Below are positions 1,493-36,695 of a DNA stretch of 54,258 bases, piece after piece. The notes beneath the pieces are model-generated. The model worked only from the letters and a program-made list of their open reading frames with translations. It did no database searches and was not told the origin of the DNA. Source of the DNA: Natrinema pallidum DSM 3751 (GTDB lineage: Archaea > Halobacteriota > Halobacteria > Halobacteriales > Natrialbaceae). A program made the position numbers and the translations under genes. Position 1 is the stretch's first letter; the number at the start of each line of letters is the position of its first letter. The stretch is from the NCBI RefSeq assembly GCF_000337615.1, contig NZ_AOII01000088.1, forward strand, positions 101,371 through 155,628. The letters are read 5' to 3'.

Positions 1493-2365
1493 TTACCAGA
1501 ATTTCAGGTTCTTCTTGACTGCTTCCCGCTTGAGCTCCTGAATGTGCTCGGTGAGCGGAATGTCCTTCGGACACACCTCGGTACAGGAGAACTGCGTCTG
1601 GCACCGCCAGACGCCGTGTTCCTGCTCGAGAATGCGGAGTCGGTGCTCCTTGATCTGCTCGTCCTCGCGGTCGTCCATCGCGAACTTGTAGGCCTTGTTG
1701 ATCGCTGCGGGGCCCAGATACTCGTTGTCGCCGGCCGCGATGTTACACGAGGACATACACGCGCCACACCAGATACACCGCGAGGACATCTTGATCTTCT
1801 CGCGGTTCTCGGGGGTCTGGCGCTGTTCCTCGAGGTCCTCGGTCGCGGGCGTGTCCTCGTCCTGGAAGTAGGGCTCGACGGTGTGCATCTGGTCGTAGAA
1901 GTGGTCCATGTCGACGACCAGGTCCTTGACGACCTCCTGATGAGGCAGCGGCTCGATGCGAACCGGCTGCTCCAAGTCGGAGATCTGGGTCTTACAGCCG
2001 AGTCGCTGCTTGCCGTTGACGAAGAAGGCGTCGGAGCCACAGACGGCCTGCCGACAGGAGTGGCGGAACGTCAGCGACGAGTCGTACTCGTCGCGGGCGT
2101 ACATGACCGCGTCGAGAACGGTCATCCCCTTTTCGAAGGGCACGTGGAAGTCGTCGAAGCGGGGTTCCTGCTTGCCCTCGACTTCGGGATCGTACCGGAA
2201 CACCTTGATGTGGACCGTCTCCCCCTCGAGTTCCGCTCGTTTTTCGGCGTGGTCGTCGACCATACCGCCGCCAGTCTGTTCGTCGGCCGCCGGCGATTCT
2301 GCCCCTTTCATCGCCGGGTCTTCCGGTGCCTCCTGGCTTTCGGGTTCGGCTTGTTGTGTACTCAT
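1493..2365 (-). CDS. sdhB: Succinate dehydrogenase iron-sulfur subunit SdhB
   Basis: Carries electrons from the SdhA flavin to the membrane subunits through three Fe-S clusters. The 290-residue protein has a haloarchaeal acidic N-terminal extension of about 50 residues. A plant-type [2Fe-2S] site follows with Cys104, Cys109, Asp112 in the place of the third Cys (as in E. coli SdhB) and Cys124. The C-terminal ferredoxin-like half has CIWCGACMSSC and a final CTEVCPKDI. Its start is one base after the sdhD stop and its stop is two bases before sdhA, so it sits mid-operon. Length and motif order are normal for the family. Confidence 0.97.
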   Translation of the reverse strand: MSTQQAEPESQEAPEDPAMKGAESPAADEQTGGGMVDDHAEKRAELEGETVHIKVFRYDPEVEGKQEPRFDDFHVPFEKGMTVLDAVMYARDEYDSSLTFRHSCRQAVCGSDAFFVNGKQRLGCKTQISDLEQPVRIEPLPHQEVVKDLVVDMDHFYDQMHTVEPYFQDEDTPATEDLEEQRQTPENREKIKMSSRCIWCGACMSSCNIAAGDNEYLGPAAINKAYKFAMDDREDEQIKEHRLRILEQEHGVWRCQTQFSCTEVCPKDIPLTEHIQELKREAVKKNLKFW

Positions 2366-2366
2366 A

Positions 2367-2732
2367 TTAGATCATTCCTCGCATCGCGAGCGCGACGTAG
2401 ATACCCTGTGCGACGAGTGCGACGCTGGCGAGGGTCAGTACTGCCAGCACGGCCTTCTTTCGTCCCCCCTCGAGTCCCTGATTGACGAGGGCGTTGTAGA
2501 CGCCGTTGACGCCGTGGAACGTGGCGGTAATCAGGAACAGGACCATCGTCAGGAAGTATCCGACGTTCTGCATTCGGGTCTGCGTCCCCATGAAGGTTAC
2601 CTCGTACGCGTGGTTGACGAAGTGCAGGAGGAAGAAGTGGAAGGCGAGAACGACGACGAGAAACGCCGCCGTGATCCGCTGGAGGAACCAGCCGGTGCCG
2701 CCGGGGGTGAACGAGGAGTATCGTTCCGCCAT
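2367..2732 (-). CDS. sdhD: Succinate dehydrogenase membrane anchor subunit (SdhD type)
   Basis: A 121-residue integral membrane protein with three hydrophobic helices, roughly at residues 15-36, 54-74 and 92-115. It starts with [16 protein letters not shown] His in the first helix (AFHFFLLHF) and another in TATFHGVNG are candidate haem ligands. The ATG overlaps the stop of the preceding sdhC by one base (ATGA-like junction), so both anchors are probably made together. Its place between a longer anchor and SdhB identifies it. Which anchor is called C or D follows the usual haloarchaeal order C-D-B-A. Confidence 0.88.
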   Translation of the reverse strand: MAERYSSFTPGGTGWFLQRITAAFLVVVLAFHFFLLHFVNHAYEVTFMGTQTRMQNVGYFLTMVLFLITATFHGVNGVYNALVNQGLEGGRKKAVLAVLTLASVALVAQGIYVALAMRGMI

Positions 2733-3163
2733 TAGATGGTCACCCCCGTCAGGAAGGTCGGGACGCTCGCGACGGTGATCGCGCCCGTCAAGACCAGCGA
2801 GGCGTAGAAACTCTTATCCTGGGCCTCGAGCCCGACGCCGAGATCAACCATCAGCAGGCGCAGCCCGTTCAGGATGTGGAAGACGGCGACCGCGAGCAGG
2901 CCGACCTCGAGCAGTCGGATGAGGAACAACCCCTCGAGTCCCTGCAGCGTCGCAGTGTACACGTTGAGTTCCTCGCCGCCGACCATCGTCGTTTCGCCCT
3001 GTGCGCCACCGATAGAAGTGCTCAGCACGGCGATATGGGTGAACAAGTAGCCGATTAACACCCACCCGGTGAACTTGTGGAAGATCCACGCCCACATGCC
3101 GGCCGAGAACTCCTTCCAGCGACCGAAGTCCTCGACGAGACCGCGATTGTAAGACTGACTCAT
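2732..3163 (-). CDS. sdhC: Succinate dehydrogenase cytochrome b subunit (SdhC type)
   Basis: First gene of the operon, 143 residues from the ATG at 3163 ([16 protein letters not shown]). The open frame continues upstream to 3241, but that extension is basic and Pro/Ser-rich, unlike the family, and runs through the promoter, so I chose the internal ATG. There are three membrane helices. A His in the first ([10 protein letters not shown]) and [10 protein letters not shown] in the second are typical haem b and quinone-site neighbours. It anchors SdhAB and passes electrons to menaquinone. Confidence 0.88.
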
Positions 3164-3191
3164 GCGCTCATGTGGACCGTTTGACCGTGGG

Positions 3192-3212
3192 GGTATAGAA
3201 GTTACTTTTATC
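3192..3212 (-). promoter_or_regulatory. Probable TATA region of the sdhCDBA operon
   Basis: On the minus strand two AT-rich boxes, GATAAAAGT (3204-3212) and TTCTATAC (3193-3200), lie about 30-50 bases before the chosen sdhC ATG. The nearer one is correctly placed for an almost leaderless haloarchaeal transcript. Nothing else in 3164-3325 looks like a gene. Confidence 0.4.
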
Positions 3213-3325
3213 GCTCCGCTCGCAGCCTCGGTTCGGTCCACCAGAGACGGGACGGAACCACTGTTGCGGCGGATTCCCGAAGTCGTTCGGGCGGCAGTTA
3301 CCGCCAGGTCTATCGCCGGGGACCG

Positions 3326-4420
3326 TCAGTCGTTCTGCCGGAGGTCGGATCGCGAACTCTCAGTCGTCCGCTCGCGCTCGAGGGCAGTGAGCGTGTCCGG
3401 CGAGAGCCCAACGAGGTGACAGAGGGGGTTCCCCGGATAGACGACTGGGTTCTCGAGAACGCCGACGATGAGGCCGGTAAACGGAGCCTCGACGGTGACG
3501 ATGTCTTCCTCTTCCTTGAACGGGTTGGTGATGGTACAGATCGCTTCGCCGGCCTCGACGAGCGCGCCGCGGCCGCGTTTCATGTCGACGATGCCACCGG
3601 CGTCCGCGCGGAGCCAGGTTTTCTCGTTGTCGTCGTCGATGATGGTCCGCCAGCCGGGCCAGTGGACCGACGATTCGCGGTGGCATCCGAATTCGGCTAG
3701 GACGCTCGCGACGCCGGTGAGCGCGCGGTCGATCAGGCGGCGCTGAAACCGGTGGGCCTCGCCCATTTCGACGGTGATCGTCGGGATGCCGTCTTCGGTC
3801 GCCTCCCGCCGGAGCGTCCCGGACGGCCCCTCGCCCGCGATGATGACGTTGGAACTGAACGCCTTCGCGAGCCTGGCGACGCCCGACTGCTCCATGTTCG
3901 CACGGACGTGGAGCATGTTCGTTCGGCCGCGCGTCGACGTGTGGAAGTCGACCCCGAGGTCGCAGGGTTCGATAAAGTTCGTGTAGATCCGGTGGGCCAT
4001 CCGTCTGGCGCTGGTCGACCCCTCGCGGCCGGGAAACGACCGGTTCAGATCGCGGTCGTAGATCGGCAGATAGCGCTCCTGTGCGAGAAAGCCCGGTACG
4101 TTCATCACCGGGAGACAGACCAGCGTTCCGTGGAGTACGGAGTGGTCCCAGTCGTGGGCCACCTCACGGACGACTTCGATCCCGTTGAGTTCGTCGCCGT
4201 GTGCCGCCGCGGAGAGAAAGACCGTCGGACCCGGATGCTCGCCGTTGATGACCGTAACCGGAATCCTGACCGGGTCCCCGAGATACGTTTCACTGATGCC
4301 GTAGCGGATGTTCGCCGACTCGCCGGGGTCGACCCGGCCGCCGTTGTACGTAAACGCTTCGGCCATCGGTTCGGAATCCGCTGCCCGGTCGGGCGGTTCG
4401 GTCGCCGCGTCGTCGCTCAT
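3326..4420 (-). CDS. Succinylglutamate desuccinylase/aspartoacylase-family metallohydrolase
   Basis: A 364-residue zinc-dependent amidohydrolase of the AstE/aspartoacylase clan (carboxypeptidase-like fold). The zinc ligands are visible as AHGDELNG (His74, Glu77) and DFHTSTRG (His160). The DLNRSFPG stretch holds family arginine and asparagine substrate contacts, and VEMGEA carries the probable catalytic Glu. The last 100 residues form a beta-rich C-terminal domain as in other archaeal members. The natural substrate (an N-acyl amino acid or other amide) cannot be read from sequence. It is followed only by the sdh promoter region and is divergent from the acetyltransferase gene at 4603. Probably a single-gene unit. 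Confidence 0.85.
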   Translation of the reverse strand: MSDDAATEPPDRAADSEPMAEAFTYNGGRVDPGESANIRYGISETYLGDPVRIPVTVINGEHPGPTVFLSAAAHGDELNGIEVVREVAHDWDHSVLHGTLVCLPVMNVPGFLAQERYLPIYDRDLNRSFPGREGSTSARRMAHRIYTNFIEPCDLGVDFHTSTRGRTNMLHVRANMEQSGVARLAKAFSSNVIIAGEGPSGTLRREATEDGIPTITVEMGEAHRFQRRLIDRALTGVASVLAEFGCHRESSVHWPGWRTIIDDDNEKTWLRADAGGIVDMKRGRGALVEAGEAICTITNPFKEEEDIVTVEAPFTGLIVGVLENPVVYPGNPLCHLVGLSPDTLTALERERTTESSRSDLRQND

Positions 4421-7265: not shown

Positions 7266-8612
7266 ATGGCTGTTGCCGATCCCGTGACCGTCGGGGTACT
7301 GAGTCTGCATACGAGCAAGGAAACGAAAGCGATTCTCAATGCCGTCGAGGAGCTCGGGCACGATAGCGAGTGGCTCCGGAACGAAAACACGTCGATCAGC
7401 GTCGCGGACGGGAGTCCGCTCCTCGAGCCCGAGGTCGACGTGATCGCGAACCGAATGTTGCTGTCGAACACCGAACAGCCCGCCGAGGAACTCGGGCTGG
7501 TCAACGCCTTCTCGCAGTTGGTACCGACGCTCAACGAACCGAGCGCGGTGATGACGGCGATGCACAAGCTCTCGACGGCGACCGCGCTGGCATCGAACGA
7601 CGTTCGAACACCGGACGTGACCCTCGCGCTCAGCGGCGAGAAGCTCAACGCCGCGCGCGAACGGTACGGCGAGGAAGCGGTGTACAAGACGGCGATCGGC
7701 ACTCACGGCGGCGGCACCTGGAAGGTGGGGCCCGACGATCCGGTCAACGCGAAGGTCGGCAACCGCTATGCCTTCCTGCAGGAACTCGTCGATCAGGAGG
7801 ACGTTCGCCACCGCGACCTGCGGGTCTACGTCGTCGGCGGCGAGATCGTCGCCGCGATGTACCGCTACGCGCCGGACAACGACTGGCGAACCAACGTCGC
7901 TCTCGGCGGCTCCGTCGAGGACGCGACCGAGGACCTCCCCGCGGAAGCAAGCGAGATGGCCAAGCGAGCGGCGGCTGTCGTCGACCTCGACTACGCCGGC
8001 GTCGACCTCGTCGAGGGCGACGAGGGATGGTTCGTCCTCGAGGTCAACCCGACTGCGGGGTTCAAAGGGCTGTACGAGGCGACGCAGGTGAGTCCGGCAC
8101 CCTACATCGCAAAGCTGGCGATCGAACGCGCCGGCGGGGAAGTGGACGACGACCGCGTGCGCGACATCGCGAACGTCCTCGACGATTCCCGACCGACCGC
8201 CCAGCCCCCGGAATCGGTGTCCCAGAATACGGAGCCCGCGGTCATCGGATATACCGAGGAGGTCGTGCTCTCCGGAACGAGCGGCTCGAAGTCGGTGCTC
8301 GCGAAGTCCGACACGGGCGCGACGCGGACGAGCATCGATACCAGCCTCGCCGCCGATATCGGTGCCGGGCCGATCAAGTCCATCACTCGGATTCGCTCCG
8401 GCAGCAGCAAACAGTCCAAGAGCCGACCGGTCGTCGATGTCGTCGTCGGCGTCGGCGGCAACCAACACACCGTCACAGCCAGCGTCGAGGACCGCAGTCA
8501 CATGGATTACCCCGTCTTGCTCGGCCGTGACATCCTCGAGAACTATCAGGTCGACGTCAGCCGTCGGATCGATAGCGACGCCGCCGAGACGCCGGAGGAG
8601 GAAGAAGAGTAA
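7266..8612 (+). CDS. RimK-type ATP-grasp ligase fused to a retropepsin-like (RimB/ATP-dependent zinc protease) domain
   Basis: A 448-residue two-domain protein. Residues 1-290 are a RimK/LysX ATP-grasp ligase that joins an amino acid to a carboxylate using ATP: KTAIGTHGGGTWKV (about 141-154) is the glycine-rich ATP loop, and LEVNPTAGFKG (258-268) is the Mg-binding end. After a linker, residues 325-435 carry the retropepsin-like domain annotated in bacteria as RimK-associated protease: SDTGATRTSID with Asp349-Thr-Gly-Ala, and PVLLGRDIL (416-424) as the psi-loop. A TATA-like ATACTTATC about 30 bases before the ATG suggests a leaderless message. Substrate unknown. The fusion implies making and cutting of the same amide tag. 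Confidence 0.9.
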   Translation: MAVADPVTVGVLSLHTSKETKAILNAVEELGHDSEWLRNENTSISVADGSPLLEPEVDVIANRMLLSNTEQPAEELGLVNAFSQLVPTLNEPSAVMTAMHKLSTATALASNDVRTPDVTLALSGEKLNAARERYGEEAVYKTAIGTHGGGTWKVGPDDPVNAKVGNRYAFLQELVDQEDVRHRDLRVYVVGGEIVAAMYRYAPDNDWRTNVALGGSVEDATEDLPAEASEMAKRAAAVVDLDYAGVDLVEGDEGWFVLEVNPTAGFKGLYEATQVSPAPYIAKLAIERAGGEVDDDRVRDIANVLDDSRPTAQPPESVSQNTEPAVIGYTEEVVLSGTSGSKSVLAKSDTGATRTSIDTSLAADIGAGPIKSITRIRSGSSKQSKSRPVVDVVVGVGGNQHTVTASVEDRSHMDYPVLLGRDILENYQVDVSRRIDSDAAETPEEEEE

Positions 8613-8702
8613 GCCGCGGGGACGGACCGCTCCCCGTGCGCCGTCGTCCGTCGCCGCCGCTTCCGGTTATTTTATTGATCTGTTTTGCGAAAGGCGACTC
8701 AC

Positions 8703-8960
8703 ATGACGACGGTTCTCGCTTCCACGCTCTCCGACACGCCGGTAATGGGCTCCGACGGGACGAAAATCGGAACGGTTCACAATATCACCATGAACGTCGA
8801 AACCGGCGAGCTCCAACGACTGCTCGTTACCCCGACGACCGACGACGTTCGCGGGTTCGACACGAACGACGACGGAAAACTCGTCGTCCCGGCCAGCCGT
8901 ATGAACGACATTGACGACTACCTGATCGTCGATCTGACGAGCCGAAAGTCCGGGACGTAA
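8703..8960 (+). CDS. Small PRC-barrel domain protein
   Basis: An 85-residue protein consisting of one PRC-barrel: VMGSDGTKIGTVHNITMN, LQRLLVTP, and KLVVPASRMNDIDDYLIV are the beta-strands and turn typical of the fold. The start at 8703 (MTTVLAST) is preferred over 8685 because it matches the domain onset. An AT-rich TTATTTTATT box lies about 30 bases upstream, so the gene has its own promoter. Archaeal single-domain PRC-barrel proteins include the cell-division adaptors CdpB1-3. The sequence style (MGSDG, NITMN) resembles CdpB2/3 more than CdpB1, but this is from memory. Confidence 0.85.
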   Translation: MTTVLASTLSDTPVMGSDGTKIGTVHNITMNVETGELQRLLVTPTTDDVRGFDTNDDGKLVVPASRMNDIDDYLIVDLTSRKSGT

Positions 8961-9196: not shown

Positions 9197-11386
<2,190 letters not shown>

Positions 11387-11481: not shown

Positions 11482-12756
11482 TTACTCGCTCCGAACGACG
11501 ATTGCGTCGTCCGTGATCTCCAGTATCTGCGAGGAGTCGACCGGATAGTCCTCGTCACCGTGGCCGCCCCAGTCCAGACGTGCTTTGAGCCGATCCGTCA
11601 GTCCGGGCTCCGGATCGACGTACGCGGTCTGGCCCTCGACCGCGGCGACCATGCCGATCTGCTGACCCGACTCGTCGACGACGTCTTTCCCCTGCTCGTG
11701 GTGTGACAGTTCGATCGGCGACGCGTCCGCCGGTTCGTTCGTCGACCCCACGCCGGCCTCGGTCTCGGGACTCGCCGTCGACTCGTCGCCCATGGCTCCG
11801 GTTTCCATCTCGCCGGCCTCCAGCCTGTCGTACTCCTCGATATCGATGATCTCCCCGTCGAGCACCTCGCTGCCGACGACCTCGGACTCGAGCAGTTCCG
11901 ACTCCTCGAACACGTAAACCAGCCGCCGCCGCTCGTCGAGTTCCTCCTCGACGGTCCGCCGCTCGATGAGTTCGCTTCGGACGGCGTCGCCTTCCGTCCG
12001 CTGGCTCTGGATGACCTCCCGCTCGAGGACGTCGTCGGCTGCCACGCTGGACCGGAGGACATCGCTCTCGAGGATCGACCGCTGGACGCTCTCGAGTTGG
12101 ATATCCGTTTCGACGACATCGCGTTCCATCTCCTGATCCTGTTCGATGTCGATATCGACGATGCGGCTCTCGACGATGTAGCGTTCGATCTCCTCGATCG
12201 TATCGAGGCGCGTCTCGTCGACGGCTACCTCGATGGTGTCGTCGCCGACGAACTCGGTGTCGACGATGTCGCGGGACAGGCGTTCGGAGTCGACGACCTC
12301 GCGTTCGACCAGTTCCGTGTCGATCACCTCGCTCTCGATCGTGTCCCGCTCGACGACCTCGGTCTCGACGACCTGCGTCTCGACGATCTCCGTCGTCACC
12401 GTTTCGCCGCGTCGCAGCGAATCCTCGAGTTCGTCCCGGCCGAGGTCGGCGCGTTCGAACGCCCGGTCGCGCTCGACGATTTCGAAGAAGCCCATCCCCT
12501 CTCCGGCCGGCTCCTCTTCGTGGTAGACGAATACGAGGTCGTCGTCTTCGAACCGCTCCGTGAACTCGTCCCAGGTGGCCTCCTCGTGGCGCTCGCCCAT
12601 CTCGTCGCGGCGAGCGAAGGAGTGGCCGTGCCCCTCGCTGTCCCGGACCCTGACCGGGACGGCGTCGCGGGCCTCGGCCCACTCCCTGATGCGCTCGGGA
12701 TCGGTCGTCAGTCGTCGCTGCGCCGGTGTCTCGGACGGGGGTGTATCGTCTGCCAT
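11482..12756 (-). CDS. Acidic protein with about 37 tandem five-residue repeats and a PRC-barrel-like tail
   Basis: A 424-residue protein that I cannot assign to a named family. Residues 1-115 are a charged globular-looking region (RDSEGHGHSFARRDEM, LVFVYHEEEPAG). Residues about 117-310 are a near-continuous array of pentapeptides with consensus [S/T/R]-[E/D]-x-[V/I/L]-[E/D], for example TEIVE, TQVVE, TEVVE, SEVID, TELVE, REVVD. One single-residue slip occurs near residues 220-226. Residues 311-340 are a low-complexity acidic linker. Residues 345-424 look like a PRC-barrel (GKDVVDESGQQIGMVAAVEG, then SQILEITDDAIVV). No signal peptide or membrane helix. A regular five-residue period with alternating acidic and aliphatic residues suggests a solenoid or long beta-structure. 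Function unknown. Confidence 0.75.
   Translation of the reverse strand: MADDTPPSETPAQRRLTTDPERIREWAEARDAVPVRVRDSEGHGHSFARRDEMGERHEEATWDEFTERFEDDDLVFVYHEEEPAGEGMGFFEIVERDRAFERADLGRDELEDSLRRGETVTTEIVETQVVETEVVERDTIESEVIDTELVEREVVDSERLSRDIVDTEFVGDDTIEVAVDETRLDTIEEIERYIVESRIVDIDIEQDQEMERDVVETDIQLESVQRSILESDVLRSSVAADDVLEREVIQSQRTEGDAVRSELIERRTVEEELDERRRLVYVFEESELLESEVVGSEVLDGEIIDIEEYDRLEAGEMETGAMGDESTASPETEAGVGSTNEPADASPIELSHHEQGKDVVDESGQQIGMVAAVEGQTAYVDPEPGLTDRLKARLDWGGHGDEDYPVDSSQILEITDDAIVVRSE
11827..12408 (-). repeat. Coding 15-bp tandem repeat array (pentapeptide repeats)
   Basis: DNA behind residues 117-310 of the preceding gene. At 12350-12394 the 15-bp units are nearly identical (plus-strand form TCGACGAcCTcgGTC, repeated three times with one to three changes). 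Elsewhere only the encoded pattern is kept, so the array is old and under protein-level selection rather than a fresh slippage product. Confidence 0.8.
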
Positions 12757-36272: not shown

Positions 36273-36401
36273 GGCTCGCGTCCCGAGCCGGGACGCGACC
36301 CGGTCCGGGCCGCCCCTCGGGCGAGTCGGCCGCGTCGTTTTCGCGCCGCTGACTGTCGTGTCTGACCAAAAGTTAAGAGTCCGCCACGCATGAGGCCAGT
36401 T

Positions 36402-36695
36402 ATGGACGACATTCCCCAAGAAATCACGTCTCTCGTCGGCCGCGAGGTGTACTCGAACAACGGCGTCTTCGTCGGCGAAGTCGAGGACCTTCGACTGAAC
36501 GTCGACGGCGAAGCCGTCACCGGCCTGGCGCTGGCGAAGTTGAACGGCGAACTGTTCGCGGAGGAAGCCCGCAGCGGACAGGGTATCATCGTGCCCTACC
36601 GCTGGGTCCGCGCCGTCGGCGACGTCATTCTCATCAACGACGTGGTCGAGCGCGTCCGCGATCCCGACGAGGAAGAGGACGAACTGCTGGCCTGA
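36402..36695 (+). CDS. PRC-barrel protein, CdpB1-like cell-division adaptor
   Basis: A 97-residue single PRC-barrel domain (VGREVYSNNGVFVGEVEDLRLN, shown in two halves as VGREVYSNNG and VFVGEVEDLRL; IIVPYRWVRAVGDVILI). It ends in an acidic tail DEEEDELLA. From memory it strongly resembles haloarchaeal CdpB1, which works with SepF and FtsZ at the division ring. I give no symbol because I cannot align it. An ATG at 36390 is an alternative start. The AAAAGTTAAGAG box at 36368-36379 fits a short leader from either start. Convergent with the phosphoesterase gene, with 21 bases between the stops. Confidence 0.85.
   Translation: MDDIPQEITSLVGREVYSNNGVFVGEVEDLRLNVDGEAVTGLALAKLNGELFAEEARSGQGIIVPYRWVRAVGDVILINDVVERVRDPDEEEDELLA

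Follow-up and report, generated by a model that had tools for sequence, protein, structure and literature searches.

The long acidic array encoded in a 54,258-nucleotide stretch of Natrinema pallidum DSM 3751 DNA (hereafter, the window) raises the question of whether a five-residue repeat of unusual composition is a folded domain, perhaps a new salt-adapted β-solenoid, or an extended spacer, and what it does in the protein that carries it. The array belongs to a single gene on the minus strand (12756-11482; ATG at 12756, stop codon at 11482-11484), whose product, P0001, is an acidic protein of 424 amino acids. The span 11827-12408 reported in the first-pass annotation, which left the strand unstated, corresponds exactly to residues 310-117 of P0001 and contains 38-39 pentads. 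Relatives in Natrinema and Natronococcus share 92-65% identity with P0001 across its full length. The protein is built in four parts, all read from the minus strand: an N-terminal domain, three array modules (A, B and C), a linker and a PRC barrel, in this order. Neither a signal peptide nor a membrane segment was noticed on inspection by eye, and P0001 is probably cytosolic.

The five-residue period of the array is strong. Its hydrophobic power at period 5 is 4.82, compared with a maximum of 2.27 among 2000 shuffles, and the power at periods 2, 3.5, 3.6 and 7 is at background. Autocorrelation, which had been proposed as a check, gives identity z-scores of 5.3, 5.4, 3.8 and 2.3 at lags 5, 10, 15 and 20. 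The phase is steady from residue 117 to about residue 221 and then shifts by -1 after about residue 222, in agreement with the single-residue slip described earlier, and the period persists through residues 223-306. The earlier figure of about 37 units stands for the period (194 residues divided by 5) but not for the motif written with it, since the strict pattern [STR][ED]x[VIL][ED] occurs just 11 times (mean 1.6 and maximum 8 in 5000 shuffles); the figure therefore describes a period and not a motif. The acidic character is borne out by 33% D+E against 10% K+R. The observation that little identity is left at the DNA level also holds, as Tandem Repeats Finder shows just two short stretches with a 15-bp period, one of 7 copies with 67% match (12290-12394) and one of 2.3 copies (12155-12188).

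The same period is found in the homologues, where its absence had been named as a reason to abandon the idea. From 75 ORFs, excluding those that match only past query residue 20 except L060 and L061, 71 distinct homologues were obtained, and period 5 is dominant in all 71, each time above the maximum of 200 shuffles. Since these homologues were collected by similarity to an array-bearing protein, the common period reflects descent and is not independent evidence. The best-window power has a median of 3.94 in a family set of 39 ORFs, which includes at least one low-power ORF (minimum 0.28), versus a maximum of 1.74 among 283 neighbouring genes. For family-wide comparisons, 36 of 38 cluster representatives (without L061 and L065) were aligned as A1, from which alignments A4 and A5 retain 34 and 35 of the 36, respectively; identity among the 36 drops to about 29%.

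Substitutions and indels separate domain from spacer. When P0001 is compared with six relatives, dN/dS is 0.19-0.34 in the array, 0.17-0.52 in the N-domain and 0.10-0.46 in the PRC domain, but 0.48-2.2 (undefined in one pair) in the acidic low-complexity linker at residues 311-348 (11713..11826). Indels are distributed in the same manner. None of 70 homologues has an indel in the core of module B (residues 177-206) or in that of module C (residues 253-285), while 16 of 70 have one in residues 116-170, 29 of 70 in the A/B junction (residues 171-176; 12229..12246) and 69 of 70 in residues 309-347. In other genera, the A/B junction accommodates inserted loops that reach about 100 residues. This contrast in dN/dS and indels indicates domain-type constraint on the array and identifies the linker as the spacer. 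The array is thus very probably a folded, or otherwise sequence-constrained, domain, and the suggestion of an extended acidic spacer fails for it, because it is under purifying selection equal to that of the flanking domains; the real spacer is the segment at residues 311-348.

The array is further divided into module A (residues 117-171; 12244..12408), the most regular one with 11 pentads, module B (residues 174-242; 12031..12237) and module C (residues 243-312; 11821..12030). Modules A and B align by hhalign with a score of 38.7, which none of 60 pentad-permuted controls reached (mean 23.3, maximum 33.9), and modules A and C with a score of 49.7, which 1 of 60 reached (mean 38.6). The B-C score of 22.6 does not exceed its control, as 40 of 60 permutations were as high. 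Although 60 permutations are few, module A is shown by these sequence comparisons to be a relative of both B and C, over and above the bare period. An intrinsically disordered acidic spacer, or one that folds upon binding of a partner, with a period inherited from an old tandem duplication, is an unlikely account of the array: the remnants of 15-bp repeats, the one-third of acidic residues and the low model confidence across module A (see below) would all suit such a segment, but its purifying selection matches that of folded domains, its cores are nearly devoid of indels with position-specific conservation, and the adjacent true linker shows a very different pattern. Folding upon a partner is nonetheless compatible with these data.

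What fold the array adopts is less clear. In the module A unit, the five positions are occupied by S/T (0.52) or R/K (0.25), E/D (0.73), an aliphatic residue (0.79), another aliphatic residue (0.91) and E/D (0.72), respectively. The ratio of V+I+T to L+A+M+K+Q, given as medians of 71 homologues, is 4.00 in module A, 2.56 in B and 1.75 in C; the same ratio is 1.00 in the N-domain and 0.77 in neighbouring genes. A period of 5 makes no amphipathic helix. AlphaFold2, run on the full-length protein and on the array alone with an input alignment of 7 close sequences, gave pTM values of 0.24 and 0.19 for the two models. It drew no solenoid and no regular structure in module A (pLDDT about 27-40), and the full-length model has helices of low-to-middling confidence at residues 206-234 and 241-293. 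In the array-only model, a single block of 10 residues reaches a pLDDT as high as 80. A prediction of disorder or coiled coil, which the first-pass annotation had listed as grounds for refutation, was hence obtained in part and weakly, in the form of the low pLDDT of module A and the weak helix within residues 206-293. A published study reports that AlphaFold2 over-predicts β-solenoids for perfect repeats (PMC11795689), and therefore the lack of one in the present models counts slightly against a solenoid. Covariation analyzed by mean-field DCA (118 aligned rows merged per ORF, of which 103 sequences with >70% coverage were kept; effective number 70) was noise beyond lag 4 and gave no coil length from i,i+15 or i,i+20. 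Composition and period favour β structure in module A, and the predicted model speaks weakly against it in modules B and C. A β-solenoid is a serious candidate for the fold of the array, short of being the expected one.

Among known five-residue folds, the pentapeptide repeat is the obvious reference. A pentapeptide repeat protein is defined by at least eight contiguous consensus pentapeptides, with L/F at the centre in the 2019 consensus (PMC8145042). The description of the array as non-standard is justified: the commonest pentad in the array is S/T-E-V-V-E/D, and none of the 36 members matches a pentapeptide Pfam model at E ≤ 0.1. The source genome also has no match to PF00805. Of the 11 pentads of P0001 module A, 2 fit the published 2019 version and none the 2006 version, and across the 71 homologues the corresponding counts are 54 and 0 of 807 pentads. 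Relaxing the 2019 consensus to a V/I/M/L/F centre and admitting I/L at the position after it brings the fit to 279 of 807 pentads, in one phase and hardly in the others, and shuffled module A fits the same relaxed form at 0.042 per pentad. Indeed, the centre is V/I/M in 431 of the 807 pentads versus L/F in 172. As judged from sequence, the array resembles pentapeptide repeats in register and may work like a pentapeptide tower.

It is nevertheless improbable that the array is simply a variant of the pentapeptide right-handed quadrilateral β-helix, a fold with four pentads per coil, with V/I substituted for the central L/F and E for D/N. The S/T-E-V-V-E/D register of module A does align with the published consensus, and the fit to the relaxed consensus far exceeds that in shuffles, but few pentads fit the 2019 consensus and none the 2006 one, Pfam recognizes none of the members, the most conserved hydrophobic residue is the outward V/I at i+1 (0.91 versus 0.79 at the centre), which the classical fold does not need, and AlphaFold2 draws no such helix. 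A new, salt-dependent and Halobacteria-specific repeat fold has also been considered, namely an acidic β-rod of three modules of S/T-E-V-V-E/D pentads with aliphatic residues at two neighbouring positions per unit, one packed in the interior and the other lining up on the exterior, where the rod would self-assemble or bind a partner, in contrast to the pentapeptide helix; this reading is speculative and rather unlikely as it stands. That residues about 206-293 are helical, as a coiled coil or bundle, with module A alone being β, is quite unlikely, for although AlphaFold2 places helices there, with pLDDT up to 80 in one block of the model of the array alone, and the β-branched excess declines from A to C, the five-residue period runs on through residues 223-306 and power at period 3.6 stays low in all 40-residue windows of P0001, leaving no heptad-like stripe, and shallow alignments of charged sequence can give rise to spurious helices, possibly also here.

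The N-terminal domain (residues about 16-105; 12442..12711) has a homologue of 87 aa in Rhizobium bangladeshense (P0002, WP_064712032.1), with 39% identity over 84 columns, a pairwise E of 1e-14 and an hhalign E of 1.5e-15, and its AlphaFold2 block has pLDDT values mostly of 50-74. The rhizobial protein has no Pfam or NCBIfam name above the cut-off, and neither the array nor the N-domain has a credible relative in Pfam, NCBIfam or the PDB. At the other end, the array had been proposed to be coupled to a PRC-barrel-like tail (residues 349-424; 11485..11712). This is supported by PF05239, which matches 9 of 36 members (best E 2.2e-5) though not P0001 itself at E 0.1, and by Foldseek, in which PRC-barrel chains fill the first ten places among the PDB matches to the full-length model, none of them at E ≤ 0.001; the outcome of this full-length search is used here for the PRC tail alone. 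Stand-alone small proteins with a PRC-type domain occur in the same genome (C88:167200 and C71:34682), and the window encodes two more small PRC-barrel proteins at 8685-8960 (+) and 36390-36695 (+).

No neighbouring gene is widely common to the 36 loci of the family component, and the neighbourhood therefore indicates no partner. An ATP-grasp gene (7 loci) and katG (6 loci) adjoin the array gene in close relatives only. In the window, a RimK-like ATP-grasp protein that carries a fused Zn_protease/aspartyl-protease-like domain at its C-terminus (7266-8612 (+); PF08443, E 1.3e-21; PF05618, E 5.1e-11) is encoded two genes from the array gene, and a catalase-peroxidase gene (9248-11386 (+); PF00141, E 1.7e-70) is convergent with it. 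An apparent degenerate remnant of the array lies beside a katG-like antisense frame in another genome (L119, G689:C1:3125000-3130500), which also has an intact array copy on contig C2.

In the genomes searched, genuine copies of the array are confined to Halobacteria. Searched with P0001, 200 of 292 Halobacteria genomes give a match at E ≤ 0.001, though many of these matches involve nothing but the PRC tail. With the array profile A3, matches at E ≤ 0.001 come from 112 of 391 Halobacteria genomes, of which 107 are at E ≤ 7.3e-9; the five weak ones range from 8.9e-5 to 2.1e-4, and the four inspected were judged spurious or mere fragments. Across 392 genomes of the phylum, 24 match, three of them outside the order. 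The matches outside Halobacteria (G397, G567 and G587) were rejected by eye as DNA tandem repeats or S/T-rich or repeat-coding frames, the weak matches in G031, G127 (C2), G249, G283 (C11), G635 (C2), G154 and G682 (C68) as antisense frames or simple repeats, and a match within the N. pallidum genome (C80:10184) as an apparent PhoU-type helical protein. Exact tandem pentads arise from 15-bp DNA repeats in a genus outside Halobacteria, with about 11 copies of NSEVI at the end of an ABC-transporter ATPase ORF (L109, G587:C11) and about 8 copies of NTELV (L110, G567:C16). In viral contigs, 11 stretches fit the pattern and none was confirmed, and the array search of phages gave no match. A divergent member, L113, has array-like segments and a PRC-like tail with no N-domain recognizable by eye, and no Pfam match. 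A homologue on a Haladaptatus plasmid is annotated as 'hypothetical protein', and no paper on such a protein was found among the titles and abstract openings of the mainly open-access literature.

The array is, therefore, a real, conserved and unnamed repeat domain of haloarchaea. Taken as a whole, P0001 is best explained, tentatively, as a scaffold or adaptor, as far as searched restricted to Halobacteria, in which a folded, acidic and V/I/T-rich domain of three related pentad modules, followed by the flexible linker, connects the small N-domain to the PRC barrel. The pentads would form a β-rich solenoid or tower-like rod stabilized in molar salt, its acidic surface would keep the rod soluble, and the rod would hold the N-domain at a fixed distance. 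The PRC barrel, tethered by the linker, might then dock on a partner, which could be a second PRC protein, in the manner of the CdpB1-CdpB2 pair; this docking role is doubtful. A widespread haloarchaeal family has a large conserved domain without a name in any library, and it shows that selection can maintain an acidic period-5 repeat one unit at a time, the adjoining spacer serving as a built-in control. Should the array fold, it would offer a natural test of repeat cohesion in molar salt with one-third acidic residues and two aliphatics per five, and a candidate design element.

Several known systems share individual features with P0001. First, pentapeptide repeat proteins (PF00805, PF13599) have in common with module A the period of 5 and an aliphatic centre preceded by an acid (i-1) and S/T (i-2), but the centre of the array is mostly V/I instead of L/F and a second conserved V/I follows at i+1. 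Second, an acidic haloarchaeal protein of another genus (L114, G031:C1:465500-470000, + strand, about 2231-3976) looks secreted and has five-residue hydrophobic arrays of its own, which differ from those of P0001 in their [VI]-E-x-[LVA]-T pattern, as does the protein in its hydrophobic, signal-like start and NETDD low-complexity spacers; it matches Pentapeptide_4 weakly (E 0.0067, below the model's cut-off), and two apparent relatives in its genus (L120 and L122) were judged from antisense frames. Third, YsnF-type stress proteins combine DUF2382 with PRC, a V/E-rich domain plus a PRC barrel as in P0001; DUF2382 (PF09557) is found in none of 246 Halobacteriota genomes, that of N. pallidum included, and in none of the 36 members. 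Fourth, the rhizobial homologue of the N-domain, a hypothetical protein, stands alone on a plasmid and, unlike P0001, has neither array nor PRC barrel. Finally, the PRC proteins CdpB1 and CdpB2 act in division of Haloferax (PMC12186497), and a CdpB divisome protein is characterized by binding of partners (SepF, a CdpB paralogue) together with that role in division. The fold of CdpB1/CdpB2 and of A. fulgidus PRC1/PRC2 (PDB 8qzo and 8onw; Foldseek ranks 11-12 and 2-3, respectively, with weak E-values) resembles that of the C-terminal domain of P0001, but these entries are chains of 75-168 residues, whereas the PRC domain of P0001 is the tail of a 424-aa protein that also bears the N-domain and the array.
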